From: a virus
Length of the DNA: 64,000 bases
Reading direction: 5' to 3' (one strand)
Virus record (IMG/VR): IMGVR_UViG_3300035670_000034
Coordinates: 62,001-126,000 of that record
Both the position numbers and the translations under genes were made by a program. The notes beneath the pieces were generated by a model, which saw nothing but the letters and a program-made list of their open reading frames with translations, was not told the DNA's origin and did no database searches. Below are positions 31,163-52,198 of this stretch, piece by piece; position 1 is the first letter of the stretch, and every line of letters starts with the position of its first letter.

Positions 31163-31198
31163 GCCAACACCTTACAGGCAAAAATGGTGTAAGGCAAG

Positions 31199-32126
31199 TT
31201 ATGCGCCCGCCATTGCCGACAGCCCCGCCCGCGACCGGCGAAGAAGGTGTGGCGCTGCGAAAGCCGTGATAGTCGCCAAGTGAAGTGGCACTATGTCCTC
31301 GTAACTGCCATAACCGCCAGCCATGACGATAACCGTACGGGCCCCGAGATTGAGGATGCGCTCTGCGACCATTGCTTCACGGCGCTCAACGACATCTGGC
31401 TCAATGAATGGGAATACATCCACACCAGCGTTGTAGAACACAATTGCGGGACCGATGGACGCAAGCCTGTTAAGCGCATCGCCAACACCGAGTAGGTATC
31501 TGTCTGGGTCGTCACACAGAATGGCCTGGCTGTTGTAGTTGCTTTCGTAGCCGTCAAAGTCAGAGGTGGAAAGGTCTACCTGTTTGATTTCTGTACCACC
31601 GATGTAGTCGTTGGTCCCGCCGCCGAAGTGGGCGTCAAGGTCAAGAATGGCGACTTGCTGCCCTGTAAGTTTCGCAGCGTACATAGCACCAATCGCTAGC
31701 GAGTTCACCGTACAGTAGCCACGACCCACATTCCGACGGGCGTGGTGAAGCCCACTAGAAAGTGAGCATGAATGGTCATAGCCAGCAAGAACATCATCCA
31801 CAGCGCACAATACGCCTGCGGTTGAGTTCAGGACTGAGTGATACACGCCGTTATCCCAACTGAATGAGTTGCTCTCCGCCAACGCGCGGGGCCGTCCAGT
31901 CATCACTGCTTGTAAGTACTCAGCATCAACGCCGTCAGCAATAGATGACTGCGCCTTTGCCAGCGCACTAGGAATACTTGCTGGGTCTTTGACCCTCACC
32001 CACTCGGACAAGCCAACTTCTGGCATTTGTAGCGAGCGAGCAATGTATCGGGATTTCTGGAATGTCTCAAACTGAGTGTCCGTCCCGCAATAATCTTCGT
32101 TCCAATAAACATTCATGTTAGTCATA
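31199..32126 (-). CDS. Histone-deacetylase-fold deacylase (AcuC/acetylpolyamine amidohydrolase-like)
   Basis: 308 residues from ATG 32126. All catalytic elements of the HDAC/arginase-like fold are visible: the His127-His128 pair in GLHHARR, metal ligands Asp164 and His166 in DLDAHFGGGT, Asp236 in NAGVDVF and the GGY tyrosine at 272. Family enzymes remove acetyl groups from lysines, polyamines or acetoin-related substrates using zinc. The second His of the canonical HH after the ligand is Phe here. Next to SSB and preceded by a hairpin. An active enzyme is likely; substrate unknown. Confidence 0.85.
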
Positions 32127-32163
32127 GTGATAACAATGATACGGCGCAAGAGGGGTAAAGCCA

Positions 32164-32208
32164 ACCCCCACCAACGCCTCGGGGGGACATTTGGGCGTTG
32201 ATGGGGGT
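32164..32208. terminator. Strong GC hairpin
   Basis: CCCCCACCAACGCC pairs with GGCGTTGATGGGGG around a 15-base loop. It separates the TM miniprotein at 32221 from the deacylase gene, both on the - strand. No long U-tract follows. Confidence 0.65.
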
Positions 32209-32220
32209 GACTTTGTTGCC

Positions 32221-32319
32221 TTACTGCTTTCTAAAGCGAGTAAGAAGCACCGTGACTAGCACGGTTGCCACAATAAGCGAATACGAGACATACTCGCTAA
32301 TGCGAATGGTCAAGTCCAC
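32221..32319 (-). CDS. 32-residue single-TM miniprotein
   Basis: GTG start at 32319 with AAAGGGGG seven bases upstream. The product DLTIRISEYVSYSLIVATVLVTVLLTRF is one hydrophobic helix with a basic end. An E1 element lies 33 bases upstream. Coding is supported by the ribosome binding site and by many similar miniproteins in this block. Confidence 0.55.
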   Translation of the reverse strand: MDLTIRISEYVSYSLIVATVLVTVLLTRFRKQ

Positions 32320-32380
32320 TTTGTTCCCCCTTTCTTAGTAGGTACGCTATCACCTTACAGGCAATAATGAGATACCGCAA

Positions 32381-32455
32381 CTAGTTCCTTACGACCAGCC
32401 ACAAGAAGTAAAAGAATATAAAGGCACCGAAGCCCACAATCTCATGCGTCAGCAT
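32381..32455 (-). CDS. 24-residue single-TM miniprotein
   Basis: MLTHEIVGFGAFIFFYFLWLVV is a nearly perfect membrane helix. The start ATG lies inside the 3' end of the zinc-motif gene at 32442-32627, so it would be translationally coupled. Too short for certainty. Confidence 0.45.
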   Translation of the reverse strand: MLTHEIVGFGAFIFFYFLWLVVRN

Positions 32456-32627
32456 TGCCGAGGGCCCCGTCTATGCGGGGTATCCACTGTCCGCCAACAC
32501 GATAGAAGCCCATCAGTTCGGCGTAATCAGTATCATCATGAAACACGACTTCACGGCAATAGTCGCATATCTCAGACTGAGAATATATGCGCTCAACGGG
32601 GCAGGTACAGGTATTTTTGTCTGTCAT
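32442..32627 (-). CDS. Zinc-ribbon-like protein, 61 residues
   Basis: CTCP near the N-terminus and CDYC about 12 residues later give a four-cysteine zinc site, followed by FYRVGGQWIPRIDG. It lies 10 bases downstream of the LysM gene on the same strand. Function unknown. Confidence 0.7.
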   Translation of the reverse strand: MTDKNTCTCPVERIYSQSEICDYCREVVFHDDTDYAELMGFYRVGGQWIPRIDGALGNADA

Positions 32628-32637
32628 ATCGCCCCGC

Positions 32638-32970
32638 TCAGCAACTTTCCCAGACTTCGCCGTTGCGCAGTTCTAGGCGACAGTCGTTACTTGTTGGTAA
32701 CCAGATTTGCCAACCAGCCTGAATGGTGGTCCCGTAGGTGTTCACCAGATTATCTGTGACTGCCTGAATGTTGCCGTCGCACTTGGCTTGGGCAATAGCC
32801 CAGAGTGTGTCACCATACTGAACCGTGTGTGGCTCAGGGTCGCAAGTGAACCTATCGGCGTTGGCTGATGCCAACCCGATTACGCCCACAAGCCCGACGC
32901 AGGCAGCAACCCACGCCAAGGCGTGACGAACCTGCCTAGTCCGATAGTTGTGAATGTTGAGTTGTTTCAT
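32638..32970 (-). CDS. LysM-domain membrane/secreted protein
   Basis: 110 residues. A signal-anchor (HALAWVAACVGLVGVIGLASANA) is followed by a LysM repeat: HTVQYGDTLWAIAQAKCDG, then YGTTIQAGWQIWLPT. LysM binds peptidoglycan, so the protein probably sits at the host wall. E1 element just upstream; 10 bp to the next gene. Confidence 0.8.
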   Translation of the reverse strand: MKQLNIHNYRTRQVRHALAWVAACVGLVGVIGLASANADRFTCDPEPHTVQYGDTLWAIAQAKCDGNIQAVTDNLVNTYGTTIQAGWQIWLPTSNDCRLELRNGEVWESC

Positions 32971-33039
32971 ACTCCCACCTTACAGGCAATAATGAGATAC
33001 GCCGACCTCACCATTTGGTGGGTCGGCGCACCTCAGCCA

Positions 33040-33210
33040 CTAGCAAGCGAGGTCGGGGTCACCCTCGCAAGGCAAGCCCTTGGCAACGCTGTTACTGTCG
33101 CAGGCACACATGACGCAAGTAGGACCGTCATTTTCTGGCAAGATATGCCAGAGGTGACTGTCGTGTATGTCGTTGTGTAGCCCAACCATGTGGTTAGTGT
33201 CGTTGTTCAT
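33040..33210 (-). CDS. Cys/His miniprotein, 56 residues
   Basis: ATG 33210 lies eight bases after an E1 element. MNNDTNHMVGLHNDIHDSHLWH is His-rich and CVMCACDS plus GLPCEG suggest a metal site. Not recognised. Confidence 0.65.
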   Translation of the reverse strand: MNNDTNHMVGLHNDIHDSHLWHILPENDGPTCVMCACDSNSVAKGLPCEGDPDLAC

Positions 33211-33371
33211 GCGACCACCTTACAGGCAATAATGCCATAAACCTACCTACACGGGCGACCGCCCCGATGCCTCGCCCAACGAACCCAAGCAAACATAACT
33301 AACGCGGGGCCCCCAGGGGAAAGCGCTTTTTCTATACCTTACGGTGGCGGAAAGGCTTTGTGAACGCCCCG

Positions 33372-33557
33372 CTATTCGGTCAACTCGTCGTTGAGTTCCG
33401 CCGTCACGAGTGCCATGTGGCAGAAAAAGTACAGGAGTAGTGTACCGAACATCCACATGCCCAGCAGTGGTGGTGATGGCATGATTATCGCCCCCACCAA
33501 CATCAGCAACAGGTGTGCTGTTACCAGCATCGCTAATAGTTTTGAGTATCTATCCAT
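33372..33557 (-). CDS. 61-residue two-TM membrane protein
   Basis: Two hydrophobic helices (KLLAMLVTAHLLLMLVGAII and GMWMFGTLLLYFFCHMALV) and a short acidic tail. E1 lies immediately upstream and E2 fifteen bases downstream. A holin-like or membrane-modifying role is possible but unsupported. Confidence 0.65.
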   Translation of the reverse strand: MDRYSKLLAMLVTAHLLLMLVGAIIMPSPPLLGMWMFGTLLLYFFCHMALVTAELNDELTE

Positions 33558-33589
33558 GCTCTTACCTTACAGGCAATAATAGTATTGCG

Positions 33590-33868
33590 CTACAGCCAGA
33601 ACCATGCGGTTTCTCGTGCGGTGCCGAAGGCCCCGTCGGTTTGCTCGCCAAGCCATTTATGCGCTTTGTCTTTGCACGAACTCCCCCTGAATACTTCCAC
33701 GGTTTGCGTGTTCGTCTGCAAGTTTGTAAGGGTTAGGCGACGAACCATGTCGGGGTACAGGGTTCCGTTCTGACGCAAGTCGCCACGCTCAATCTTTACA
33801 CTCCAATGTTCGGCTCGGGGCTCCGCCGCAAGTGCCAAGTTCACTATCTCGACTTTGTTGATGCTCAC
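33590..33868 (-). CDS. Hypothetical protein, 92 residues
   Basis: I place the start at GTG 33868, overlapping the upstream stop (GTGA). INKVEIVNLALAAEPRAEHWSVKIERG... is beta-rich with a Lys/Trp-containing C-terminal helix. Not recognised. Confidence 0.65.
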   Translation of the reverse strand: MSINKVEIVNLALAAEPRAEHWSVKIERGDLRQNGTLYPDMVRRLTLTNLQTNTQTVEVFRGSSCKDKAHKWLGEQTDGAFGTARETAWFWL

Positions 33869-34041
33869 TTGTCCAGCACCCACTCGATTACTTCGGCTTG
33901 TTCGTCAGTGACATCGTCGGTGAGTGGGGCAGAGAAGTAGTCCTCCAACTGGCCAGTAGCCCACTCGTAGAACTGCTCCATTACCTGCTCAGCCTCTTCA
34001 GGGTTGAGCCCTTCCAGATTTACCTTTGGCATTTTGTTCAT
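33865..34041 (-). CDS. Acidic helical protein, 58 residues
   Basis: MNKMPKVNLEGLNPEEAEQVMEQFYEWATGQLEDYF... is nearly all helix and strongly acidic. ATG 34041 sits eight bases after an E1 element; coupled to the next gene by GTGA. Confidence 0.68.
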   Translation of the reverse strand: MNKMPKVNLEGLNPEEAEQVMEQFYEWATGQLEDYFSAPLTDDVTDEQAEVIEWVLDK

Positions 34042-34050
34042 ACCTCAACC

Positions 34051-34287
34051 TTACAGGCAATAATCGTCTTGTGCAACCAAGTCACTTATAGTGACGATGC
34101 GACCACGCCACAGCGACTTCCACGGCGACCGCCCCGCTGACCGGAGGCCCTGGGCGTGTTCCCAACGACATTGTTCTTCCCAATAGCAGTCGTATTCCTC
34201 TTCAGACATTGCCTCCAAGTCGGCGTCAGTTGGGTCGTAGTAGCGGGGCCAGCGCTGCCACTTGTAAACGGGTTCAAGCAACTTCAT
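34051..34287 (-). CDS. Hypothetical Trp/Tyr-rich protein, 78 residues
   Basis: MKLLEPVYKWQRWPRYYDPTDADLEAMSEEEYDCYWEEQCRWEH... The last residues VAQDDYCL are encoded by the E1 element of the next operon, whose TGTAA supplies the stop. So the element overlaps coding DNA here. Not recognised. Confidence 0.65.
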   Translation of the reverse strand: MKLLEPVYKWQRWPRYYDPTDADLEAMSEEEYDCYWEEQCRWEHAQGLRSAGRSPWKSLWRGRIVTISDLVAQDDYCL

Positions 34288-34396: not shown

Positions 34397-34935
34397 TACT
34401 GGGAGACGAACTTCTGGAAGTCAGAGATGACGTCTGCTATTGCGCCCTGAACATCATCCCCACTTTCGGTAATCTCCTCGCCAAACAACGGCAGTCCGTT
34501 GTCGCCATACTTGTAAGAGATTACGGTGTTGGTGCGCCGCCCCGAGATGTCAAACACCATTACCGAGAGAACTTCACCAACTGAAGGGTCTACTTCTTGC
34601 GTAAACGCCCTCTGTAAGTCGCCACGCCGAATCTCCTCATTTGGATTTTTGTTTTCCTTGATGTATGCCTCAACAATAATTCCCACCATTCGGGGCACCC
34701 CATGTTCCATAAACGCTTGCTGAAGTTCATGGTGTAGTACGTCTGGGGCTGGGACTTCTTCACTTGGTGGAGTCATGGCGATAATGGTTATTGCGTCGTC
34801 AGTCTGCCAGATTAGGAATGGCGGTGCGTCCGCTGGCCCCGAGGAATCAGAACACATAATCAACTTGGCTCCCTTGGCGAAGGTTACGGCTGATTCGGCA
34901 AAACGCTTGAATTTCCGAGAGTTGCCTTTAGCCAT
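34396..34935 (-). CDS. Hypothetical protein, 179 residues
   Basis: From ATG 34935, overlapping the upstream gene by eight bases. A basic N-terminus (MAKGNSRKFKRFAESA) precedes an alpha/beta body with FLIWQTDDAITIIAMT, LSVMVFDISGRRTNTVISY. No family recognised. Confidence 0.7.
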   Translation of the reverse strand: MAKGNSRKFKRFAESAVTFAKGAKLIMCSDSSGPADAPPFLIWQTDDAITIIAMTPPSEEVPAPDVLHHELQQAFMEHGVPRMVGIIVEAYIKENKNPNEEIRRGDLQRAFTQEVDPSVGEVLSVMVFDISGRRTNTVISYKYGDNGLPLFGEEITESGDDVQGAIADVISDFQKFVSQ

Positions 34936-35143
34936 TCTGCTGCGCCTTTGAGTAGCGATAGTTCTCATACAAGTCGTGAGCGTGGGCAAAGATGATTTCT
35001 TCGTACTTGTCGCTCTCATACACTTCTTCAGTATGGGGCAAGCGGGCGCTATCAACTAGTTCGTGAAGCGCCTTTTCGTACCAATACTCCACGACTTCGT
35101 CAGGTTGGTCGCACAGGGCGAACGTAATGGGGTTGTCATTCAT
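34928..35143 (-). CDS. Hypothetical acidic protein, 71 residues
   Basis: MNDNPITFALCDQPDEVVEYWYEKALHELVDSA... is helical with many Tyr/Glu. ATG 35143 follows an E1 element by eight bases. Coupled to the 179-residue gene. Confidence 0.68.
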   Translation of the reverse strand: MNDNPITFALCDQPDEVVEYWYEKALHELVDSARLPHTEEVYESDKYEEIIFAHAHDLYENYRYSKAQQNG

Positions 35144-35221
35144 AATCTGACCTTACAGGCAATAACTCATTATTCCAACTGTCCGGTTTATGCGGGGCCC
35201 GTCGTCGGGCCGTGTTGGCGC

Positions 35222-35500
35222 TCACACCGCCCTCAGTCGCTCGACGTACTCGCACTGGTCGTTTATGGGCGCATCAGTAAAGTCCTGAGCAGTCAGTTCT
35301 CGGTCTATGCGGCCAGTCAGGCAAGACAGGCACAGCATTCCCTCGCCAGCCCCGTGCTTGTCCCACAGTTCGTCGTGAACCATGTAATACTCGCCGTACT
35401 CGGCGGTGTGGATACCGCAGTCGTGGCAGTCAAACGCCCCACTCCAATAGAAGTCATCATGCTCATCTAGGTAGGCATCTAGGTCAGCGTCGGTCATCAT
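35222..35500 (-). CDS. Zinc-binding protein, 92 residues
   Basis: MMTDADLDAYLDEHDDFYWSGAFDCHDCGIH... has CHDC early and CLSC later, the four ligands of a zinc ribbon. The start overlaps the stop of the 45-residue gene at 35500. Function unknown. Confidence 0.7.
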   Translation of the reverse strand: MMTDADLDAYLDEHDDFYWSGAFDCHDCGIHTAEYGEYYMVHDELWDKHGAGEGMLCLSCLTGRIDRELTAQDFTDAPINDQCEYVERLRAV

Positions 35501-35637
35501 CACCCCTCTCCCTCGTGGAAAGGATACCAACCCCAACCGCCGTCGTTGCAGCAGTCGCATTCGTTGTCTGCGATTTCCCGATAGCAGGAGTCGCAGTATC
35601 CAGGGTTGTATGGGTTGTTGCTCGGTGTGTTCTCCAT
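35500..35637 (-). CDS. 45-residue zinc miniprotein (paralogue of 36189-36326)
   Basis: NNPYNPGYCDSCYREIADNECDCCNDGGWGWYPFHE. It shares NNPYN, YCDxC, ECxC and NDGGWGWYPFH with the + strand gene at 36189, so the two are paralogues. Cysteines C-x2-C and C-x-C-C fit one zinc. E1 element 8-9 bases upstream of ATG. Confidence 0.75.
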   Translation of the reverse strand: MENTPSNNPYNPGYCDSCYREIADNECDCCNDGGWGWYPFHEGEG

Positions 35638-35869
35638 GCCTACACCTTACAGGCAATAATGGTATAGTCCTACCGCACAACCGCACAAGGTTATCCACAG
35701 GCTGTACACAGGTTATCCACAGGCGCACCCCAGCCGCCGCCATGCGGCAGCCCCGTGGTCACGCCACGTGCGGAAACCAATAAATACAAAAAGCGGGACA
35801 ACCCCCAAAAAATGTGTTTCTCTATGTCTTACGGTGGCGGAAAGGCCTTGGGGCTAGGCCCCGTTTCGT
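35638..35869. promoter_or_regulatory. 232-bp gap with two DnaA boxes, E1 and E2
   Basis: Holds E1 at 35645, perfect DnaA boxes TTATCCACA at 35691-35699 and 35713-35721 (same orientation, 22 bp apart) and E2 at 35821. Such twin boxes could seat host DnaA as a replication start or as a regulator. Confidence 0.6.
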
Positions 35870-35889
35870 CTATGAGACATAGAACCTGA
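35812..35889 (+). CDS. Possible 25-residue peptide encoded across E2
   Basis: ATG 35812 reads MCFSMSYGGGKALGLGPVSS and stops at 35889, antisense to the 3' end of the 35870 gene. Related frames at 38671 (GTG, MCFSMPHGGGK) and 44652 (GTG, MCFSIPYGGGN) share the N-terminus. No convincing Shine-Dalgarno. Confidence 0.3.
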   Translation: MCFSMSYGGGKALGLGPVSSMRHRT

Positions 35890-36115
35890 CGGCCTCTTTG
35901 GTGGTCAGCAGGTCTCGGTCGTAGCGGTGGTCATACCAAGCCCCGGAGAAGCGATAGAGAACGCTCGTCAGGGCCTTGTAGAGGATTTCTTCTTTCTCCT
36001 CTGGCCACTGCGTATCGTCTGCCTCGGCCCCGGCCGCCTCAAGGGTGGCCATAGCCTCGGTCAGTAGGAACTTCAGTTGTTCTACTCGTTCGGTCAGTTT
36101 CTGTGTCTCTTCCAT
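35870..36115 (-). CDS. Hypothetical coiled-coil protein, 81 residues
   Basis: MEETQKLTERVEQLKFLLTEAMATLEAAGAEADDTQW... starts with a heptad-like coil and continues into a helical domain with YRFSGAWYDHRYDRD. E1 upstream of ATG. Not recognised. Confidence 0.7.
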   Translation of the reverse strand: MEETQKLTERVEQLKFLLTEAMATLEAAGAEADDTQWPEEKEEILYKALTSVLYRFSGAWYDHRYDRDLLTTKEAVRFYVS

Positions 36116-36122
36116 ACTGTCA

Positions 36123-36182
36123 TCTTACAGGCAATAATGATGTACCACAACTGTAGCCTTATCCCATTATTGCCTGTAAGGT
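36123..36182. promoter_or_regulatory. Back-to-back E1 pair driving divergent genes
   Basis: One E1 copy (36123-36153) faces the - gene at 35870-36115 and another (36151-36182) faces the + gene at 36189. They meet at ACAACTG. This is the clearest evidence that E1 is directional and belongs to the downstream start codon. Confidence 0.8.
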
Positions 36183-36188
36183 CTTGGT

Positions 36189-36326
36189 ATGACACCGACC
36201 AACAATCCATACAACAGCGAGTATTGCGATGCCTGCGACACCTACCTCAAGGGTGACGAGTGCGCCTGCCACAATGACGGTGGCTGGGGCTGGTATCCAT
36301 TCCACAACGAAGAAACCGAGGACTAA
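36189..36326 (+). CDS. 45-residue zinc miniprotein (paralogue of 35500-35637)
   Basis: TNNPYNSEYCDACDTYLKGDECACHNDGGWGWYPFHNE. Same length and motif order as the - strand paralogue. It is one of the few + genes in this block and is served by its own E1. The terminator at 36411-36454 follows. Confidence 0.72.
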   Translation: MTPTNNPYNSEYCDACDTYLKGDECACHNDGGWGWYPFHNEETED

Positions 36327-36893: not shown

Positions 36894-37164
36894 TGAGGGC
36901 GTCTAAACGATGAAGAATGTGGGGTGTGCGCTCCCCCACCCAAGCACCTTGACAGTTGAACTCAATGTATTCAACCGCCTCGTCGTAGGACAGACCGTCC
37001 CGCGTCATCAACACGCTCACCATCTTGTCAAAGTCATAAACTGCCGTTTCTGGCTCGTTTATTCGTGTGGTGTAGCCGAGAAACGCGTCATCAAACCCAT
37101 CCATCAGAAGAAGGTTCATGTCAGCGTCTTTCAGCGCCCTGTCAATCGCGGGACGGGTCGGCAC
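36886..37164 (-). CDS. Conserved phage protein (MDGFDDAFLGY family)
   Basis: 92 residues from GTG 37164 (TAGTG overlap with the regulator) or 77 from ATG 37119. LLLMDGFDDAFLGYTTRINEPETAVYDFDKMVSVLM and YDEAVEYIEFNCQGAWVGERTP follow a family I recognise from many phages, whose role is unknown. Confidence 0.78.
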   Translation of the reverse strand: MPTRPAIDRALKDADMNLLLMDGFDDAFLGYTTRINEPETAVYDFDKMVSVLMTRDGLSYDEAVEYIEFNCQGAWVGERTPHILHRLDALNE

Positions 37165-37385
37165 TATTTCAGAACTTCTGCTGGCTTTACCGACAGCGTT
37201 TCGCACAGACGAAACAGCGTGTTGAGGTTTGGCGAGAAGTGGTTGTTCTCAATGCGGTTCACAGTCTTGCGGTCAATGCCAGACTTGTCGGCAAGTGCGT
37301 TCTGCGACATGCCCCGCTCGATACGAAGGTCTTTGAGTTTCTCGGCAACTCGTCGTTCCTTCTTTATGATTTCTGATTTCTTCAT
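37164..37385 (-). CDS. XRE/Cro-type HTH repressor
   Basis: 73 residues from ATG 37385 (AGGAG five bases upstream). LKDLRIERGMSQNALADKSGIDRKTVNRIENNHFSPNLNTLFRLCETL is a textbook HTH_3 domain; nothing else is present, so it is a Cro-like single-domain regulator. A near-consensus promoter with an overlapping palindrome lies just upstream, arguing for autoregulation. Confidence 0.88.
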   Translation of the reverse strand: MKKSEIIKKERRVAEKLKDLRIERGMSQNALADKSGIDRKTVNRIENNHFSPNLNTLFRLCETLSVKPAEVLK

Positions 37386-37681: not shown

Positions 37682-37718
37682 CCTGCCACCCCCCTATCAG
37701 GCAAGGGGGGTTGGCAGG
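37682..37718 (-). terminator. Hairpin between E1 and gene (possible attenuator)
   Basis: CCTGCCA-CCCCCC pairs with GGGGGG-T-TGGCAGG around ATCAGGCA. It lies downstream of E1 at 37745 and upstream of the ATG at 37672, so transcripts from E1 must cross it. Confidence 0.6.
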
Positions 37719-37856
37719 ATTAGTAGTTACGCCTGATACCTAAACCTTACAGGCAATAATGCGATAAGGCGACTTGGGCTGGGGTTGCCCCCGTGCTTGG
37801 GGCGACAGCCCCGAGGGGGCCGGCGACGGGGTTCGTGATAGGCTATTATGACGATT

Positions 37857-38449: not shown

Positions 38450-38528
38450 GTCCCCCCTTGTCCCCCCCACCCCCCACCGCGTCGGGCGCTGCGGCGGGGG
38501 CGGGGGCTTGGTTGGTGATGCCCGACAC
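38400..38528 (-). CDS. Possible E1-served small protein overlapping 38312-38449
   Basis: GTG 38528 lies six bases after the E1 copy at 38534 and opens a 42-residue frame rich in Ala, Pro and Gly. It overlaps the next gene in another frame. Supported only by the E1-to-start rule. Confidence 0.28.
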   Translation of the reverse strand: MSGITNQAPAPAAAPDAVGGGGDKGGHEVAAHSARARPARRA

Positions 38529-38757
38529 CAACATCTTACAGGCAATAATGGTGTACCACAACTAGCCCCATTCGTGCGCGGGCGCACAAGCGCGGGCGCA
38601 CACACGCGCACGCGGGGCCGCAGGCGCGTACGCGCATACGTGCGCGCGAACGCGGGACAAAGGGCAAAAAGTGTGTTTCTCTATGCCTCACGGTGGTGGA
38701 AAGCACCACGCGCCAGCCCCGTGCGAGCCGGCCTTGCCGTATGTGAGATTGCTAACT
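38529..38757. other. Intergenic gap with E1, E2 and a CpG-alternating tract
   Basis: Contains E1 at 38534, then about 38567-38655 dominated by alternating GCGCGC/CGCGCA/TACGCGCATACG purine-pyrimidine steps, and E2 at 38680. I see no gene apart from the E2 frame. Such alternation is a Z-DNA-prone composition. Confidence 0.55.
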
Positions 38758-39197: not shown

Positions 39198-39233
39198 ACC
39201 CTTACCTTACAGGCAATAATGGATTAGTGCTAC

Positions 39234-39721: not shown

Positions 39722-39741
39722 ACCTTACAGGCAATAATGCC

Positions 39742-39903
39742 CTAAGCCAACTCTCCGCAGTGTCGGCATACAAACTGACTGTCGTTCTCCACACAGCCGT
39801 ACCAGCCGTCATAGCGTGAGTCAGTCTGGGCATGGTCATCGCAACAGTAGGTGGCGATGTCTACGGTGTCTCCGTTGGTGTCGGTGATAATGACTATGTT
39901 CAT
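39742..39903 (-). CDS. Zinc-site miniprotein, 53 residues
   Basis: MNIVIITDTNGDTVDIATYCCDDH... FVCRHCGELA: CC early and C-x2-C at the end. ATG 39903 eight bases from E1. Confidence 0.65.
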   Translation of the reverse strand: MNIVIITDTNGDTVDIATYCCDDHAQTDSRYDGWYGCVENDSQFVCRHCGELA

Positions 39904-40087
39904 GCCCCTACCTTACAGGCAATAATGGGATAGGGCAACTGCCGTGTCGCACCGCCCGCCGCAGGTGGCGGCGGCCCCGCCCTCGGCTCGAACGTACAAA
40001 CAACAAACCCTGAAAACCGGGACTAGGCCAAAAAGTTGTTGTCTCTATCCTCTACGGTGGCGGAAAGGGCCAACGCGGGACCCCTCG

Positions 40088-40625: not shown

Positions 40626-41009
40626 CTACACCTTACAGGCAATAATAGTATTAGACACTTTACCAGCATCTATCCATGTTTCGCCGTTAGAAGCCCACAA
40701 TCCGAACTGTCGCATGACTGCGAGACGCCCCGCATCTCCGAGTTCGTCGTTTAGCACGGCAAGGTCAGCGTTCACCTCATCAAGTTCTTCCTGAGTGCCT
40801 TCATCTTCCAATCGCCAACGGTTGAGTATCGCAAGTATGAACGCCTCGTATGCGCTCAACTTGTAGTAGCCCTCGCCGTCTGGCGCAATAGACAGAACCA
40901 AACTCATAAACTCATCAAGCGTGGCATAGGTTGGCAATACCCCTGATACCGGGGCCCCACCGTCACCCCCTTGCGGAGTGGCGGTTGGGGTTGTAGTGGG
41001 GGCGGTCAT
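40626..41009 (-). CDS. Hypothetical protein, 127 residues
   Basis: A disordered Thr/Pro/Gly N-terminus is followed by a helical domain (YATLDEFMSLVLSIAP, YKLSAYEAFILAILNRWRLE, LDEVNADLAVLNDELG). The last residues NTIIACKV are read through the E1 element of the next operon. ATGA overlap upstream. Confidence 0.72.
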   Translation of the reverse strand: MTAPTTTPTATPQGGDGGAPVSGVLPTYATLDEFMSLVLSIAPDGEGYYKLSAYEAFILAILNRWRLEDEGTQEELDEVNADLAVLNDELGDAGRLAVMRQFGLWASNGETWIDAGKVSNTIIACKV

Positions 41010-41368: not shown

Positions 41369-41446
41369 GCTATGACCTTACAGGCAATAATGGGATTACG
41401 CAACCTACGCTGAGTGGTCGCCTGACCACAGAACTAGCGCACAAAG

Positions 41447-42517: not shown

Positions 42518-42557
42518 ACTTAGAACTTACAGGCAATAATGATGTAAGCCAACTCGA

Positions 42558-42917: not shown

Positions 42918-42954
42918 GCTTTGACCTTACAGGCAATAATGGTGTAACGCAACC

Positions 42955-43482: not shown

Positions 43483-43511
43483 AGCAGTACCTTACAGGCA
43501 ATAATGCCTTA

Positions 43512-43745
43512 TCACAACTCCACGCCTTCGGCTATCGCCAAGAAGCCGGGGCCATTCATTTCGGGGTCTCTCGTAGGAAGAACTACCGTGCCGTCAGTCA
43601 TCACGATTTGTATGACAGGCTCATTTATGTCATCCCAGCCCAAAGCCTCAAGTTCTAGGGGTTGAACAAGTCGCACCGAGCGCACCTTTTTGCCAACGAT
43701 GGCCCCGTAATACTCAAGTGCGCTTATCTCTGTTTCGGTAATCAT
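43512..43745 (-). CDS. Hypothetical protein, 77 residues
   Basis: ATGA overlap. MITETEISALEYYGAIVGKKVRSVRLVQPLELEALGWDD... VIQIVMTDGTVVLPTRDPEMNG is a small beta barrel-like sequence. Not recognised. Confidence 0.7.
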   Translation of the reverse strand: MITETEISALEYYGAIVGKKVRSVRLVQPLELEALGWDDINEPVIQIVMTDGTVVLPTRDPEMNGPGFLAIAEGVEL

Positions 43746-44267: not shown

Positions 44268-44293
44268 ACTTAGACCTTACAGGCAATAATGAG

Positions 44294-44512
44294 TTATGCC
44301 AACTCGTTGTCTTTGCCAAACTGCAACATGGGCAGTTCCTCAATGACAGGCGAGTTCACACCGTAGAACACGGTAACCTCATCTACCTTATTGCCCTCAG
44401 CGTCATAGACATAGAGTGCGACAACAGAGAAGTCCACACTGCCGTCTTTGCGGAAGTAGGTCTTGACCTGCTTGGTGATTTTAGTTGCGTTGTGAATGTC
44501 AATGTTTGCCAT
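44294..44512 (-). CDS. Hypothetical beta-rich protein, 72 residues
   Basis: MANIDIHNATKITKQVKTYFRKDGSVDFSVVALYVYDAEGNKVDEVTVFYG shows regular strands. E1 upstream of ATG. Not recognised. Confidence 0.7.
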   Translation of the reverse strand: MANIDIHNATKITKQVKTYFRKDGSVDFSVVALYVYDAEGNKVDEVTVFYGVNSPVIEELPMLQFGKDNELA

Positions 44513-44555
44513 GCCACCACCTTACAGGCAATAATGGGATAACGCTACTTTGACA

Positions 44556-45175: not shown

Positions 45176-45254
45176 ACCTGAACCTTACAGGCAATAATGC
45201 TTTATCGCAACTTTCGTCGTGGGACACAAGTGACGGCCCCGGTGGGTGCGCTTC

Positions 45255-45761: not shown

Positions 45762-45970
45762 ACCACGACCTTACAGGCAATAATGGTTTACGACAACCCT
45801 TGTGTGTGCGAAGCAGGATTGCCCACCCCCCTTGAGCCGTTGGCCCCGAAACTTTGAACTTTCTGGTTTGGGCTGCCATTTTTGCCTTCAACGCAACAAC
45901 CTGCTGTTTGTCACTGCCGCACGCGCGCGGCGGGGCCAATCGGTATATGGCTATGTCTTACGGTGGTGGA

Positions 45971-46081: not shown

Positions 46082-46384
46082 CATCTCCACTTCGTAGAAG
46101 TGTGTAGGGTCTGGTGCTTTCTTGGTAATCAAGTACCCAATGCGATTGACGTAATGGTAGCCATCTACGATTACCGTGCCGTCCTCGCCATCTATGTAAG
46201 TCCAAACATAGTGGGTTGGTTCGCTTGCGTTAGAGGTGGTGACGACGAATAGAACTTCCTCGCCGTAGGTCTCAAACAACAAACCACCCAAGCCTGCGTC
46301 ATCCGACAGGTGGTTCTCAATGGGCTGAAACTCTTTTTCCCAAGCCTCAAAGTCCATCTTCTTGATAGTTAGTTTTACGCTCAT
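46079..46384 (-). CDS. Hypothetical protein, 101 residues
   Basis: MSVKLTIKKMDFEAWEKEFQPIENHLSDDAGLGGLLFETYGEEVLFVV..., a small alpha/beta protein with YVWTYIDGEDGTVIVDGYHYVNRIGYLIT. I associate this shape with a conserved phage family but cannot name it. E1 upstream. Confidence 0.72.
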   Translation of the reverse strand: MSVKLTIKKMDFEAWEKEFQPIENHLSDDAGLGGLLFETYGEEVLFVVTTSNASEPTHYVWTYIDGEDGTVIVDGYHYVNRIGYLITKKAPDPTHFYEVEM

Positions 46385-46410
46385 GGATAAATCTTACAGG
46401 CAATAATGAG

Positions 46411-46620
46411 TTATGCCGACCCAAGCCTTGCCATCAGGGTTGCATGCATATCGGAATCACGATTTACATCTTCTTGTGTGGTGATGTCTTCCCACTGCTC
46501 GGTCTCGTCATCCCAGATGGCCCCGTCTGGGAAACGTGCATCAAGAGAGTTGTGGTCAATATGGAAGACAGGCTGTCCGTTTTCCATCCAGCACTCAACG
46601 ATGAAGTAGTGCTTTTTCAT
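46411..46620 (-). CDS. Hypothetical protein, 69 residues
   Basis: ATGA overlap. MKKHYFIVECWMENGQPVFHIDHNSLDARFPDGAIWDDETEQWEDI is beta-rich and acidic. Not recognised. Confidence 0.7.
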   Translation of the reverse strand: MKKHYFIVECWMENGQPVFHIDHNSLDARFPDGAIWDDETEQWEDITTQEDVNRDSDMHATLMARLGSA

Positions 46621-46811
46621 TTCTTGCCACCCATGTAATGCTCAATGATGCGACGAAGCCCTGCTCCGTGTTCATACCACTCGCCGTGTGGGTCTGCGCC
46701 CTGTTCATACTCGGCTTTGAGTTCTGCTGGCAACTCGTCGGTGTTGATGATTATTGCTTCATCAACAGCGAAGTAGGTGTCAGTTCCTGGGTGTACGACG
46801 ATTAAGTTCAT
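46617..46811 (-). CDS. Hypothetical protein, 64 residues
   Basis: MNLIVVHPGTDTYFAVDEAIIINTDELPAELKAEYEQGADPHGEW... short alpha/beta protein with a His/Gly-rich end. E1 upstream; coupled to the next gene. Confidence 0.7.
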   Translation of the reverse strand: MNLIVVHPGTDTYFAVDEAIIINTDELPAELKAEYEQGADPHGEWYEHGAGLRRIIEHYMGGKK

Positions 46812-46837
46812 GTTTGTACCTTACAGGCAATAATGCT

Positions 46838-47017
46838 CTATGCCAACTCTGCTTCTATGCGGAAGTTGGAAATGTCCATCGGAAGTAGGTCGTCGCTAAT
46901 AACGGCGTCCATCGCCTTGCTCTCGGCGTCGGCCCCGTCCTCGGCGAACACCGTGACGGTTGTGATGTGGTAGTCGGCAACGAAATGCACGTTCCAACGA
47001 GTTAGGGTGTCAGTCAT
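46838..47017 (-). CDS. Hypothetical protein, 59 residues
   Basis: ATG 47017, two bases after the upstream stop. WNVHFVADYHITTVTVFAEDGADAESKAMDAVISDDLLPMDISNFRIE resembles the same ferredoxin-like mini-domain as 38758-38949 (strand, AESKA helix). Not named. Confidence 0.68.
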   Translation of the reverse strand: MTDTLTRWNVHFVADYHITTVTVFAEDGADAESKAMDAVISDDLLPMDISNFRIEAELA

Positions 47018-47019: not shown

Positions 47020-47499
47020 TCACCATGAAGCCTGATAGGCGAAGTACCACTCGCTGGGCATTGACACGGCTTTTTCAAGTATCTTGACCGTATCTTCAAG
47101 GTCGGAGAAGTAATACTCATCGTATTCGGTACTCCCGAAGAAGAACCCAGACTGTGTTGGCAGTAGTTCCTCGGCTCTACCCTGCTCGGCAAGAACTTCT
47201 TTGACCGTAGCCAACAGTTCTTCAAGTTTCTCACGAGACACATAGACTTCTCGGCAGTCATCTTCGCCATTGGCGCAGTTGTCCACGAACCATTGGTGTA
47301 CGGCATTGACCTTGCGCCAATAACCGATTTTCATGTCAATGATGATGGTTCCGCCAAAAGTAGTGTCAAGGTACTGTGTGTCCTCGCCAATGGCTTCCTT
47401 CAACTTCTGGAAGTCGGCATTTTTCTTCTGCCATGTCGGCTCCTCAAAGTCGTTGCTGAACGTATATTTCTTTGCGTATAAGTATTGGTCTAATCCCAT
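47020..47499 (-). CDS. Conserved phage protein (MGLDQYLY family)
   Basis: 159 residues. MGLDQYLYAKKY, IGYWRKVNAVHQWFVDNCANGEDDCREV and SGFFFGSTEYDEYYFSDLEDT match a family I recognise across many phages; unknown function. E1 upstream. Confidence 0.86.
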   Translation of the reverse strand: MGLDQYLYAKKYTFSNDFEEPTWQKKNADFQKLKEAIGEDTQYLDTTFGGTIIIDMKIGYWRKVNAVHQWFVDNCANGEDDCREVYVSREKLEELLATVKEVLAEQGRAEELLPTQSGFFFGSTEYDEYYFSDLEDTVKILEKAVSMPSEWYFAYQASW

Positions 47500-47535
47500 A
47501 CCTGCACCTTACAGGCAATAATGAAGTAAGACAAC

Positions 47536-47977: not shown

Positions 47978-48352
47978 CTACTTGCCAGCAACCAGATACT
48001 CGGTTGCCATTGTCCACAGATGCTCTGCTGAGTCATAGAAAGATTGCTCAACATCTTCAAGCCTCATTGACGGAATGATTCTGACAACAGGCAAAGACTC
48101 AATGCCCTGCTCGTGGAATATGTTCCAACCGCCATCAGTAGCCCACACTTCAAGCCGTGCGTAAGACTGCTCGTCGTAGTAGTTGCGCCGAATGACGACA
48201 CGGATTTTGGTACGGAAGTGCTTGTGAATCCCACTAGGACCGAAAGCACGAATCTCGGTGTAATACCAAGACTGTTGGTGATTGCGGAATGTCACATCGT
48301 TGCCATCTTCGGTGACGGTGTGATACCCCATGTGATTTGTGGTTGTAATCAT
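47978..48352 (-). CDS. Hypothetical beta-rich protein, 124 residues
   Basis: GYHTVTEDGNDVTFRNHQQSWYYTEIRAFGPSGIHKHFRTKIRVVIRRNYYDEQSY... and a helical end. E1 upstream at 48360. Not recognised. Confidence 0.72.
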   Translation of the reverse strand: MITTTNHMGYHTVTEDGNDVTFRNHQQSWYYTEIRAFGPSGIHKHFRTKIRVVIRRNYYDEQSYARLEVWATDGGWNIFHEQGIESLPVVRIIPSMRLEDVEQSFYDSAEHLWTMATEYLVAGK

Positions 48353-48379
48353 ACTTGGACCTTACAGGCAATAATCACT

Positions 48380-48577
48380 TTAGACAACCTCTTCGTATGT
48401 ATCAAAGCAGTCGTATGCCTCAAAGTATTCGGTTCGGTTGGCGAGCAGTCCCGAGATGCGAGCCAGCAGGGCTGCGATTATCTTGTCGGACTCCTTGTTC
48501 CAAGCATCTTGGCTGTCTGCGTGTTCGCAGTTTGGCACGGCGAATGCGATGCTGTAGGCGTGATTGTATTTAGTCAT
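48380..48577 (-). CDS. Hypothetical protein, 65 residues
   Basis: MTKYNHAYSIAFAVPNCEHADSQDAWNKESDKIIAALLARISGLLANRTEYFEAYDCFDTYEEV; helical with an acidic aromatic end. ATGA coupled. Confidence 0.7.
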   Translation of the reverse strand: MTKYNHAYSIAFAVPNCEHADSQDAWNKESDKIIAALLARISGLLANRTEYFEAYDCFDTYEEVV

Positions 48578-48867
48578 GTCAGGACCTCAACTTCAAGTGC
48601 TTTGTGGGATTGATTGCCATTCATGAACTCTTCGTTATAGCGGTCCCAGAACTCGGGGGCATCTTCATCTATGGGGTATGTGAAGTCACCGCCATAGTCC
48701 TTCACCCACTCGCCATTCTTGTGGACGTGCTGATACTTATCTTCAAGTGTCATCTTGTCCCATCCGTCTGGCAGGGTCTTTAGCGACCAATACTCGGCTC
48801 GGTCGCTTCTCCACAGGTTGTTTTCGCTCACCTCTTCGGTGATGAAGCGCAGCACTATTTCGCTCAC
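48574..48867 (-). CDS. Hypothetical protein, 97 residues
   Basis: MSEIVLRFITEEVSENNLWRSDRAEYWSLKTLPDGWDKMTLEDKYQHVHKNGEWV... mixed alpha/beta with many Trp. ATGA overlaps both sides. Not recognised. Confidence 0.7.
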   Translation of the reverse strand: MSEIVLRFITEEVSENNLWRSDRAEYWSLKTLPDGWDKMTLEDKYQHVHKNGEWVKDYGGDFTYPIDEDAPEFWDRYNEEFMNGNQSHKALEVEVLT

Positions 48868-49142
48868 TTCACAGCCTCGTTTGCCAGAAACTCACTTGTT
48901 AGACCCTCGATGGCTTCCTTGACGCCATCGGCGGTGAAGTGCCTGTAATCCTTAGCATCTTCTTCGCTCACCTCAACGGCGTCCCATGGTCTGTCCCAAT
49001 CAAGTAGTTCAATCTCAACGATTGGGGCGGTTGAGTACGCACCCTCGTCGCTGAAACTAATGGTCGGGTCGTCGTCGTCCTCGCACTCGTAAAGGTACTG
49101 AACGTTGATTTCAACTGTCTGATGAATGATGTATTTCTTCAT
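48864..49142 (-). CDS. Hypothetical acidic protein, 92 residues
   Basis: MKKYIIHQTVEINVQYLYECEDDDDPTISFSDEGAYSTAPIVEIELLDWDRP... acidic beta-rich. First gene of a three-gene unit, E1 at 49150. Confidence 0.7.
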   Translation of the reverse strand: MKKYIIHQTVEINVQYLYECEDDDDPTISFSDEGAYSTAPIVEIELLDWDRPWDAVEVSEEDAKDYRHFTADGVKEAIEGLTSEFLANEAVK

Positions 49143-49168
49143 GCGTAGACCTTACAGGCAATAATGGT

Positions 49169-49336
49169 TTATGACAACGGCTGAACGTCGTGCCTCGTAC
49201 ACCAACCGTCATAGCAGTCGTCGCATAGAAGCACATTTTCCTCATACACGCGTTTGCCATCTTCGGTGGCCCCGGTGGGGGCTAGATTCCAGTGTTCGCC
49301 TAGGTCAACTTCGCACCAGTGGCAGGTTCGGTTCAT
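49169..49336 (-). CDS. Zinc-ribbon protein, 55 residues
   Basis: ATGA overlap. MNRTCHWCEVDLGEHWNLAP... LLCDDCYDGWC has two C-x2-C pairs. Function unknown. Confidence 0.68.
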   Translation of the reverse strand: MNRTCHWCEVDLGEHWNLAPTGATEDGKRVYEENVLLCDDCYDGWCTRHDVQPLS

Positions 49337-49737: not shown

Positions 49738-49738
49738 T

Positions 49739-50020
49739 TCAGATGACTTCCCCATCAACAGTGGTCGTGAGACCGTGAGTGTGTTCGGAATGCATCTGCT
49801 GGTACTCGGGATAGGTGTTCCCAATAATTTCGTGCGGGTTGGACTCTTCGTAGCACTCCAGATTCAAAGAACCATCGTCGTTGAACGATAGGACAACGTT
49901 GTAGATGGTGTCTTTAGTGCCGTTGGAGCGGACGATGTTCACTTCTGCGACGCAGGGAGCATCATCCCAGTCAATAAGCGGAATGTCTGCAATTGGGATG
50001 TTTAGTTCGTGTTTCTTCAT
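49739..50020 (-). CDS. Hypothetical protein, 93 residues
   Basis: MKKHELNIPIADIPLIDWDDAPCVAEVNIVRSNGTKDTIYNVVLSFNDDGSLNLE... beta-rich. E1 upstream at 50028. First of a three-gene unit. Confidence 0.7.
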   Translation of the reverse strand: MKKHELNIPIADIPLIDWDDAPCVAEVNIVRSNGTKDTIYNVVLSFNDDGSLNLECYEESNPHEIIGNTYPEYQQMHSEHTHGLTTTVDGEVI

Positions 50021-50047
50021 ACCTGCAACTTACAGGCAATAATTAGT

Positions 50048-50251
50048 TTAAACAACCTCTTGGGTTTCGGCCGTCATCAGGTATAGGCGAATGTCCAGAA
50101 GAAGGTCGGTCATTTCAGACGAAGACACAAGGTCCCTACCCGAAATGTCGGCAATTGCCTTATCCACGAGTTTCAAGGCTTCGCCGATTTCCGGGACCCC
50201 GACACTTGTGCTATCCACTGCGGTGGTGGAAGACTCAACCATGGTATCCAT
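50048..50251 (-). CDS. Hypothetical protein, 67 residues
   Basis: MDTMVESSTTAVDSTSVGVPEIGEALKLVDKAIADISGRDLVSSSEMTDLLLDIRLYL... Ser/Thr-rich start, then helices. E2 at 50211 lies antisense within its first codons. Not recognised. Confidence 0.65.
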   Translation of the reverse strand: MDTMVESSTTAVDSTSVGVPEIGEALKLVDKAIADISGRDLVSSSEMTDLLLDIRLYLMTAETQEVV

Positions 50252-50586
50252 TATACAAACTTACACAGTATGGCGTGAGTATCTTCGCCATTCCACTCGA
50301 CATCAAAGCCCTCGTTGCGTAGTGCGGACACGATAATGTGCGCCCCGCCGTTGTCGTGATAAATGTATTGGTAATCATTGCGAGCATTGCCACTATCTCT
50401 GGCAAAGGCAAGGTAATTACCCTGGCCACCATACGTCCATGCAACAGGTGTGCCTGGTTTGTAGTTGGGTTCCATGTCGGCTGCTGCACATGTACGGCAA
50501 CAATCCATGCGATTTAGTTGGGTATAGACCCCAAGTTTTGCCACTGCTCTCCATGCAGCATTCCAGCGTTGTCGCTGAGTTCTCAC
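50251..50586 (-). CDS. DUF6891-like protein, 111 residues
   Basis: GTG 50586 overlaps the upstream stop. CCRTCAAADM, then YIYHDNGGAHIIVSALRNEGFDVEWNGEDTHAILC, follows the CC-x2-C and G[LF]xVxWxG pattern of a small bacterial family I recall as DUF6891. Identification is by memory of the pattern only. Confidence 0.65.
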   Translation of the reverse strand: MRTQRQRWNAAWRAVAKLGVYTQLNRMDCCRTCAAADMEPNYKPGTPVAWTYGGQGNYLAFARDSGNARNDYQYIYHDNGGAHIIVSALRNEGFDVEWNGEDTHAILCKFV

Positions 50587-50861
50587 AGCAGTTCCTCCAA
50601 GGCACTATCCCAATCAGTGTCGTTTTCGCCAAGGGTATTGACGAAGTAGTACATCTTGCTGAACCTCATTGACTGCTTGTGAAAGAAGTTGTAAAGTTCT
50701 TGCGAACCCTCGCCGTACTTATCGCAAAGTTGGGCGAACTCCTCCAGAATGGCGTCCCTCTCCTCTTCGGGAAGGTTGTTGAAAGACTCAACCACTTCGC
50801 TCCAGACCTTCGCCTGATAAGCCTCGTGGAGGAGGTTGATGAATTCGGTGTCGTTTTCCAT
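50583..50861 (-). CDS. Hypothetical helical protein, 92 residues
   Basis: MENDTEFINLLHEAYQAKVWSEVVESFNNLPEEERDAILEEFAQLCDKYGEGSQELYNFFH; fully helical and acidic. E1 at 50870. Possibly anti-sigma-like by length, but no evidence. Confidence 0.7.
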   Translation of the reverse strand: MENDTEFINLLHEAYQAKVWSEVVESFNNLPEEERDAILEEFAQLCDKYGEGSQELYNFFHKQSMRFSKMYYFVNTLGENDTDWDSALEELL

Positions 50862-51075
50862 GTGTTGCACCTTACAGGCAATAATTACTTATTCCAACCC
50901 CCATGTGCGCATCCGCGCGCCATGGAAGACTCATCCTACAGGCATTAATGGGTTAACGCTCGCGAGCCCCGGATATACCAGACGTGCTGACCGTCACAGA
51001 CATTGCAGGTTGTCAAACTACGTGGCTATCCACTACGGTGGTGGAAGACAGTTATAACCAATAAGGAGAAACCAC

Positions 51076-51471
51076 ATGAAACCACGGCTAGTTAGTACGC
51101 CATCAACAGAAGGGGCGCTGCACACAATTGCATATGCCCGTAATAAAGATGGCCGAATTGACCTTGATGCATACAAGGGCCTAACTGGGACTATTGAATC
51201 AAACAACCTAAAGATTGATGTAAAAATCAACAACGCTCGAGTTCGTTACGGGCATCTCGATTTGAATGTCAGTCCGATGTCCGGGGCTGGCGAGGTATGG
51301 GTTGAGCGAAAGAATATTGAAATCAACAACGACCCTGCGGCCAAGGCCCCCGTGGCAAAGATGAAAACTCGCAAAATTGACGAATCAAAACCGGAAAACG
51401 CGTTTCCGAAGAACGACATCAAGGAAATGATTCGGATGATGATTCAGGAAGAGCGCCAAAAGGCCGTCTAA
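51076..51471 (+). CDS. Hypothetical protein, 131 residues
   Basis: AAGGAG seven bases before ATG. N-terminal beta domain (YARNKDGRIDLDAYKGLTGTIESNNLKIDVKINNARVRYGHLD), linker, basic C-terminal helix. An E2 copy at 51026 precedes it by 28 bases. First + gene of region 4. Not recognised. Confidence 0.72.
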   Translation: MKPRLVSTPSTEGALHTIAYARNKDGRIDLDAYKGLTGTIESNNLKIDVKINNARVRYGHLDLNVSPMSGAGEVWVERKNIEINNDPAAKAPVAKMKTRKIDESKPENAFPKNDIKEMIRMMIQEERQKAV

Positions 51472-51689
51472 TAACGGCCCGGCCGCAAGTCTTCCCGAAG
51501 GTATACCACATCTCCGTCATCTTTGGATTCGATGGCGGAAGATGTGGGAACCTCATCTGTGTCTGCCTTCACAGGGGCCTCTTCTGATAATTCTTCAGAA
51601 CTTTCTTCTTCCGCCGCCGGCTGCGGCTCAAAATGAATTCGCTCAAGTTTTTGGTTGGACCCGAGGGCCCCGTGATTGTTCCCGGCCAT
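51468..51689 (-). CDS. Disordered acidic protein, 73 residues
   Basis: MAGNNHGALGSNQKLERIHFEP... followed by PAAEEESSEELSEEAP; Glu/Ser-rich tail ending REDLRPGRY. Convergent 4-bp overlap with 51076-51471. Not recognised. Confidence 0.6.
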   Translation of the reverse strand: MAGNNHGALGSNQKLERIHFEPQPAAEEESSEELSEEAPVKADTDEVPTSSAIESKDDGDVVYLREDLRPGRY

Positions 51690-51726
51690 GTTGTCTTACC
51701 TCATTATTGCCTGTAACGTGTTTGCC

Positions 51727-52161
51727 ATGCTAAATCTAACAGATGACTACATAGACAGTTTACCTGCGGACACACGACGCATCCCTGATGTTGAGCGTGG
51801 CCTATACGTATTACAGACGTGGCAGAAGAATGGGGCCAGTGGCTCACCTGCTTCATGGCTCAAAAATTACATGATTCGCTCAGAGGGTTTGATGTGGATA
51901 AATCAAAACATCATCCCAAAACTAGGCGTCGCCATCGTGGCCGAGGAAAAGACGGAAAAACGCAAGGACAAGTACGCCAAGTTGGAGAAACTTGCGCTGG
52001 ATAACCTGTATCACGAATTCACGACCCAGCAACTCGCTGATGAGTCGGGGCTCGGCGCACAAACCATTAGCAAGTGGGCAAAGACCACTGGTTACTTCCG
52101 AGTAATAGGGCGTGGCAAGTGGGAAGCCCGCAATCCAAAAGATGACCGCAAAAACGCCTAG
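51727..52161 (+). CDS. HTH-containing protein, 144 residues
   Basis: Start ATG 51727 follows a + strand E1 copy. The C-terminal part has FTTQQLADESGLGAQTISKWAKTTGYFRVIGRGKWEAR, a helix-turn-helix. The N-terminal part ends with MWINQNIIPKLGVAIVAEE. Likely transcription factor for the MoxR/VWA operon 38 bp downstream (inference). Confidence 0.75.
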   Translation: MLNLTDDYIDSLPADTRRIPDVERGLYVLQTWQKNGASGSPASWLKNYMIRSEGLMWINQNIIPKLGVAIVAEEKTEKRKDKYAKLEKLALDNLYHEFTTQQLADESGLGAQTISKWAKTTGYFRVIGRGKWEARNPKDDRKNA

Positions 52162-52198
52162 GGTTGTCTTAACTCATTATTGCCTGTAAGGTACAAGT

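Follow-up and report, generated by a model that had tools for sequence, protein, structure and literature searches.

A repeated start element in the small-gene block of a phage is likely an array of mostly leaderless promoters with a lineage-specific spacer box

A repeated element at the operon starts of a small-gene block

What keeps one short sequence almost unchanged ahead of nearly all operons in a block of small phage genes, and what reads it? The question is raised by the element E1 in IMG/VR virus record IMGVR_UViG_3300035670_000034, of which we analyzed a window of 64,000 nucleotides, bases 62001-126000 of the 136,198-base record; positions below are those of the window. The arrangement of its bases and its counterparts in related phages make it likely that E1 is a promoter giving rise mostly to leaderless mRNAs.

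The 16-mer CCTTACAGGCAATAAT was matched 35 times in the window at 3 mismatches or fewer, where 0.34 matches were expected and the maximum of 100 shuffles was 2. All but one of these matches (34/35) carry 0 or 1 mismatch; the 35th, on the minus strand at 50934..50949, has 3, looks degenerate and is kept outside the 34 copies discussed here. Exact E1 14-mers number 32 across the whole record. The copies at 36166, 51703 and 52176 are on the plus strand and all others on the minus strand. A sequence-only reading of this DNA had described 34 copies of one repeated regulatory element preceding nearly every operon of the block, which is borne out by the 34 copies with at most 1 mismatch and by start codons 6-7 nt downstream in 30/34. 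It had also confined the element to 31.2-52.2 kb. Indeed, 33 copies lie within 31.17-52.19 kb and the other stretches of the 136-kb record hold none at 3 mismatches or fewer, but one full copy, at 29037, falls outside that range.

Aligned in gene orientation, the copies give the consensus (A/G)GTTG-N3-TA-N3-C-ATTATTGCCTGTAAGG-T-N6-ATG, of which the earlier version was a correct, slightly short form. The T following GG is invariant (34/34), and the length of N6 is almost constant: with gene boundaries taken from a simple in-house gene caller and not from a published annotation, ATG or GTG follows this T by exactly 6 nt in 28/34 copies and by 7 nt in 2/34. The four exceptions are the copies at 29037, which is antisense, at 32353, which precedes a leader with a GGGGG-type Shine-Dalgarno (SD) sequence, and at 37745 and 38534, which precede pseudoknot leaders. 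From 75 nt before the core, no sequence conservation was found upstream of GTTG among the 34 copies, and the bases that flank or separate the fixed positions are random, indicating that the copies are old and not recent duplicates, and that the fixed bases are under selection. An exact 16-mer search of IMG/VR returned a single multi-copy record, identical to the window across all 35 flanked copies and hence nothing independent; the remaining matching contigs hold single copies, probably by chance.

Promoter geometry and arrays in related phages

E1 is laid out as TTG (-35), a 17-bp spacer, TAAGGT (-10), 6-7 nt and a start codon, in the frame GTTG-N20-TAnnnT. TTG occupies alignment positions -12 to -10 and TAAGGT positions 11 to 16, and the 17 bases between the hexamers are normal sigma-70 spacing. 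TAnnnT is present in 34/34 copies, with T11, A12 and T16 invariant and G15 variable. As the T, the A and the last T are fixed while the second G varies, we read TAAGGT as a -10 element and not as an SD sequence. The first T of the -10 element is 12 nt from the ATG in most copies. A TANNNT motif roughly 12 bp upstream of the start codon is the mark of leaderless bacterial genes, which are common in actinobacteria (PMC3160421); in M. tuberculosis, leaderless genes make up 26% of those with a primary start site (PMC3898074). E1, with TAnnnT about 12 bp before the start, resembles these promoters, which need no SD sequence (PMC3160421, PMC3898074). Host leaderless promoters, however, have little or no -35 element and no conserved spacer, whereas the 34 E1 copies have a TTG -35 element and an invariant spacer box.

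E1 is very probably a promoter, and most of the starts that it leads are likely leaderless. TTG at -35 to -33 and TAAGGT at -12 to -7 would serve as contact sites for host RNA polymerase with sigma-A, and the transcript would begin at or beside the A of the ATG, with an almost zero 5' leader translated in leaderless fashion. The invariant CATTATTGCCTG would occupy -24 to -13, the spacer directly upstream of the -10 element. The 34 promoters would drive, mostly as leaderless mRNAs, a block of small genes that appear by content and layout to be early genes, and a lineage-specific DNA-binding factor at the spacer box would switch the whole block. A promoter with a transcript from the ATG explains E1 better than the start-associated mRNA sequence of the sequence-only reading.

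That reading had suggested a scan of related phages, in which the E1 sequence proved to be absent and the same architecture was found with a different box. These relatives are metagenome contigs, most of them fragments and some possibly of one population. A large terminase (TerL) search gave more than 400 related IMG/VR stretches; the E1 pattern was absent from the 24 TerL-related records searched, many of which are fragments, and in the largest of them repeated words of their own stand out instead. Searches with two block proteins gave further contigs, many with their own element. No close relative was found among annotated phage records; one block protein is shared with DSL-LC01, itself a metagenome assembly.

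In whole contigs of the closest relatives, five lineages share the one frame GTTG-N20-TAnnnT and have different spacer boxes: ATTATTGCCTG in this phage and CTTATTACGGG, AATAACGGA, ATAACCGA and ACCATTAGTACC in the others. This phage has GTTGnnnTAnnnCATTATTGCCTG-TAAGGT, with starts 5-8 nt past the -10 element in 30/34 copies. The same start distance is found in 23/26 copies of GTTGtnaTTAnncCTTATTACGGG-TAGngT in contig G028 (box CTTATTACGGG), in 26/31 copies of GTTGtnatTgtncCtAATAACGGA-TACnnT in G027 (box AATAACGGA) and in 21/24 copies of GTTGTCTTATACCATTAGTaCCgc-TAnagT in G029 (box GTTGTCTTATACCATTAGTACCGC). G003, G025 and G026 have 17-18 copies each of GTTGtnaTTgtnnntTATAACCGA-TAAnnT (box ATAACCGA), of which 9-11 have starts at 5-8 nt and the remainder a leader and an SD sequence before the gene. 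As one promoter serves both kinds of start in this group, the leaderless and the promoter readings are linked. Words of other sequence recur in G001 (about 30 copies of TTTTGTAAATCTGATATC) and in G002 (33 copies of TTTTGGAAATTTGGTATC), counts that, like that for G003, include a few doubtful copies; TAnnnT lies at a fixed distance downstream, mostly with a leader and an SD sequence after it. The arrays of the relatives span a gene block equivalent to that of E1, and more distant contigs have further lineage-specific arrays. At L188, L199, L224 and other distant loci, the high-copy words of the early block include palindromes (AGAATATTCT, AGAGATCTCT) and words placed right on TATAAT, and not every one of them fits the frame of E1.

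SD complementarity was compared with random 20-mers from the block of this phage. In G027, the clearest lineage, 11/25 array starts lack such complementarity, compared with 40% of the random 20-mers; SD enrichment upstream of G027 array starts is therefore absent, the level being random, which supports reading TAAGGT as a -10 element. The E1-led genes of this phage have SD matches of 3-5 nt, mostly 4-5, a higher complementarity because AAGG is part of the -10 element. TAAGG may also aid ribosomes on read-through transcripts in this phage.

Eight array promoters without a start at 6-7 nt begin H-type pseudoknots whose 5' arm extends from the predicted +1: 37745 and 38534 in this phage, 13636 and 15222 in G027, 3719 and 6390 in G028, and 19687 and 22689 in G029. 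These RNAs open with (A/G)TC; the 6-8 nt at the 5' end form stem 1 with a downstream arm, on whose 3' side lies a second segment that pairs with bases in the loop, and the pseudoknots end near an SD sequence and ATG. Stem 1 pairing is kept despite different sequences (ATCAGC/GCTGAT, ATCGGC/GCCGAT, GTCGGGC/GCCCGAC and GTCACC/GGTGAC). A loose criterion was matched by 9/167 array promoters against 1.7 expected from shuffled downstream sequence; on visual inspection eight of the nine were accepted as real, and the other one (G027 20677) was put down to chance. Counts were limited to array promoters, as a general scan of all loci was dominated by background. Because the arms begin where the -10 element predicts the +1, they support the assignment of the start site. 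The pseudoknot leaders probably control translation of the downstream gene.

The spacer box and competing explanations

The stretch from -25 to -13 of E1 holds about 22 bits in this phage, where sigma-A needs little sequence, so that a dedicated reader of the box is reasonably probable. Since the box differs among relatives while the promoter frame is constant, it is the probable site of a lineage-specific DNA-binding factor. We lean toward an activator working with sigma-A, because the -35 and -10 elements are far from consensus; a repressor is nearly as likely. The sequence-only reading had proposed one regulator for the block, be it a repressor, a sigma factor or an RNA-binding protein. One factor is sensible given the 22 bits, but an RNA-binding protein is disfavored, as most conserved E1 bases would lie upstream of the +1, and neither this record nor seven related ones, most of them fragments, yielded a sigma-70 region 2 (Sigma70_r2). 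One 70-aa protein gave a weak region-4-like match.

Several points weigh against this picture. No reader of the box was found, and none of three candidates examined has recognition residues that track the box. The XRE (Cro/C1-type) protein encoded at 37164-37385 was rejected as the specificity determinant, its recognition helix being almost identical across phages with different boxes. The winged-helix protein at 51727-52161 was set aside likewise: its helix is nearly the same across different boxes and is common to this phage and G029, whose boxes differ. In the third candidate, a fusion protein encoded at 10559-11167, the helix-turn-helix is near-constant between phages. The reader may be another protein or a host protein. 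In addition, several array motifs of the more distant contigs are off a clear TAnnnT, so that the wider class is not uniform, and the host is one that we only infer. TAAGG in this phage also fits an SD core at a workable distance; as it doubles as an SD-like word, the leaderless reading leans on the relatives, among which G029, G028 and the ATAACCGA group have some SD-like matches of 4-6 nt.

Two alternatives concern the element as a whole. E1 might be a translation element of the mRNA, with TAAGG as the SD sequence and the rest binding a protein or RNA, as proposed for the start-associated sequence (SAS) of cluster K. Its place next to the start codon and the SD matches at E1-led genes agree with this, but the last G of TAAGG varies whereas the following T, useless for an SD sequence, is invariant; the aligned G027 element is TACnnT, without SD enrichment; in G001 and G002 a separate SD sequence follows TAnnnT at a distance of some tens of nt; and the pseudoknot leaders begin directly after the element. 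We consider this explanation very unlikely. That the copies are repeats spread and homogenized by recombination, without regulatory selection, is hardly credible: near-identical short repeats amid shuffling small genes would suit such a process, but the copies are random outside the conserved positions, and those positions follow a promoter frame common to arrays of different sequence.

The other two accept the promoter and concern the box. Host RNA polymerase may, without any modification, use these as strong early promoters, as in T4, with a box that suits the host, differs as hosts differ and has no phage reader. The lack of a phage sigma region 2, the high copy number across an early-type block, and a -35/-10 frame common to all lineages with boxes that differ, as different hosts could demand, fit this proposal. 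It is nonetheless somewhat unlikely, as we know of no sigma-A promoter whose spacer comes near the roughly 22 bits of this box, boxes differ even between phages with common early genes and probably related hosts, and the conserved block of G001 and G002 lies further upstream, over the -35 element. Alternatively, the box could be an operator for a phage repressor and the array a distributed immunity or shut-off system, similar to cluster A stoperators but inside each promoter. Lineage-specific words are typical of repressor specificity in cluster A (PMC6550527) and a monomeric repressor on an asymmetric site has precedent (PMC9283540); some relatives have palindromic words (e.g., AGAATATTCT and AGAGATCTCT), and a Cro/C1-type protein is encoded in the block. 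Against this, no tyrosine or serine recombinase or integrase was found in this record or the relatives tested, most of which are fragments, the Cro/C1-type recognition helix is nearly unchanged across phages with different boxes, and the promoter hexamers are weak, not consensus. We regard a repressor operator of this kind as unlikely. The preferred reading is a promoter whose box binds a dedicated factor.

The likeness to cluster K drawn by the sequence-only reading holds as a kinship in kind, to the promoter-bearing extended start-associated sequence (ESAS) (PMC3203893, PMC11373665) and not to the SAS. The SAS is the 13-bp GGGATAGGAGCCC with an AGGAG SD core, in 11-19 copies (PMC3203893). 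The ESAS is a pair of 17-bp imperfect inverted repeats with putative promoters inside, and its repeat consensus varies between subclusters, suggesting different protein specificities (PMC3203893, PMC11373665, PMC12699233). Like both, E1 is a repeated conserved element at the starts of non-structural actinophage genes. Unlike the SAS, it has a different sequence without AGGAG; unlike the ESAS, it has no conserved inverted repeat in its 34 copies, a single box between -35 and -10, and mostly leaderless starts. Early and MotA-dependent middle promoters of T4 also occur in tens of nearly identical copies across a small-gene block, and those of the middle class have a box that is recognized by a phage factor and precedes an ordinary -10 element. 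E1 resembles them in its tens of near-identical promoters over small phage genes, but T4 genes have SD leaders and the MotA box replaces the -35 element at about -30, whereas the E1 box is at -24 to -13 and the TTG is kept. With cluster A stoperators (PMC6550527, PMC9283540), E1 shares many short asymmetric sites per genome and a lineage-specific sequence; those sites are distributed genome-wide and block elongation, whereas all E1 copies but one are predicted promoters at operon starts, and no integrase was found.

Repeated phage early promoters and promoter-bearing, lineage-specific start elements are known already, the latter from cluster K ESAS; E1 differs from them in scale, in its leaderless layout, in having the box within the spacer and in the turnover of that box among related phages. 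No description of dense phage arrays of leaderless promoters was found in the open-licence literature. If the reading is true, a phage group common in freshwater metagenomes runs a large gene block from such arrays, precise start sites are predicted for dozens of uncharacterized small proteins, the 5'-terminal pseudoknots are a candidate RNA class without an Rfam entry, and the boxes, a natural series from at least five lineages that share one frame, allow a direct test of how protein-DNA specificity evolves among related phages. We propose only tentatively that a large group of actinobacterial phages expresses its early genes from leaderless promoters arrayed in tens, that the spacer box of each lineage is matched by a fast-evolving phage factor of its own, and that relatives infecting the same cell could therefore not read each other's block; a few promoters would lead into 5'-terminal pseudoknot leaders.

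Host, genes and features of the block

WhiB genes were found in this record, in 17/19 other records tested and, among 14 control genomes, in Corynebacterium only. As WhiB is an actinobacterial family, these genes point to actinobacterial hosts, here probably a freshwater actinobacterium. The phage is probably lytic and probably uses host sigma-A. The protein at 10559-11167 (plus strand) has an N-terminal helix-turn-helix fused to a WhiB domain, and similar fusions occur in G007, G027 and G029. Proteins encoded at 54641-58111 are ribbon-helix-helix-like, by sequence impression and a weak NikA-like match.

The orphan E1 copy at 29036..29065 (minus strand) is an exact 16-mer with TTG, TA and C present and no downstream gene start; it lies antisense inside predicted gene 28900-29082 and points toward the 3' end of a 3355-aa gene. 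On the minus strand of the block, the promoter at 31169..31198 is assigned to a predicted leaderless start of gene 30962-31162 by motif and start spacing. The gene at 31199-32164 (minus strand) encodes a protein of histone-deacetylase type (PF00850, E=7e-20); homologues occur in G027, G028 and G029. By motif and gene caller, the promoter at 32352..32381 precedes a leader and an SD-type start (32221-32319). Predicted leaderless starts follow for 32638-32970, probably encoding a LysM-type protein (promoter at 32977..33006), 33040-33210 (33217..33246), 33372-33557 (33564..33593), 33865-34041 (34048..34077), 34928-35143 (35150..35179) and 35500-35637 (35644..35673), all on the minus strand. At 36122-36182, two E1 promoters stand back to back as a divergent pair, one at 36122..36151 (minus) for the start of 35870-36115 and one at 36153..36182 (plus) for that of 36189-36326.

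Continuing on the minus strand, leaderless starts are predicted for 38946-39197 (promoter at 39204..39233), 39395-39715 (39722..39751), 39742-39903 (39910..39939), 40486-40623 (40630..40659), 41006-41368 (41375..41404) and 42008-42517 (42524..42553), for 42558-42917 with GTG (42924..42953), and for 42955-43482 (43489..43518), 44034-44267 (44274..44303) and 44294-44512 (44519..44548). The promoter at 45182..45211 precedes a predicted leaderless 9-codon open reading frame, MNTTTRGKR (45146-45175), whose stop overlaps the next start (TAATG), that of gene 44724-45146. Further predicted leaderless starts on this strand are those of 45309-45761 (45768..45797), 46079-46384 (46391..46420), 46617-46811 (46818..46847), 47020-47499 (47506..47535), 47978-48352 (48359..48388), 48864-49142 (49149..49178) and 49739-50020 (50027..50056); the promoter at 50869..50898, for the start of 50583-50861, is based on motif and gene caller.

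On the plus strand, the promoter at 51690..51719 would drive 51727..52161, which encodes the winged-helix candidate regulator of 144 aa. Homologues 33-57% identical were found in nine of nine array-bearing phages tested; the model (predicted local distance difference test score of 87) has a C-terminal winged helix-turn-helix, and its fold matches are generic, none with an E-value below 0.02. The promoter at 52163..52192 precedes the predicted leaderless start of 52199-52921, encoding an AAA_5 ATPase. The ATPase and the downstream 517-aa protein, which E1 would drive, resemble a MoxR/VWA-type pair (52199-54471, plus strand), VWA being assigned by impression without a Pfam match.

The two pseudoknot leaders of this phage are on the minus strand. 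The promoter at 37744..37773 leads into the H-type pseudoknot at 37682..37737, with stem 1 from the predicted +1, followed by gene 37535-37672; that at 38533..38562 leads into the pseudoknot at 38464..38526, followed by gene 38312-38449. Neither belongs to an Rfam family, and an Rfam search gave no credible match to the block, to the pseudoknots or to noncoding-RNA-like transcripts. An RNA-like conserved transcript (GACTGAAGAGTGTCC..TAACGCTAATC..), whose motif is absent from this phage, arises from array promoters without an obvious open reading frame at G003 19367, G025 13038, G027 17936, G001 111250 and G002 92751, and its G027 copy is followed by a terminator-like hairpin.

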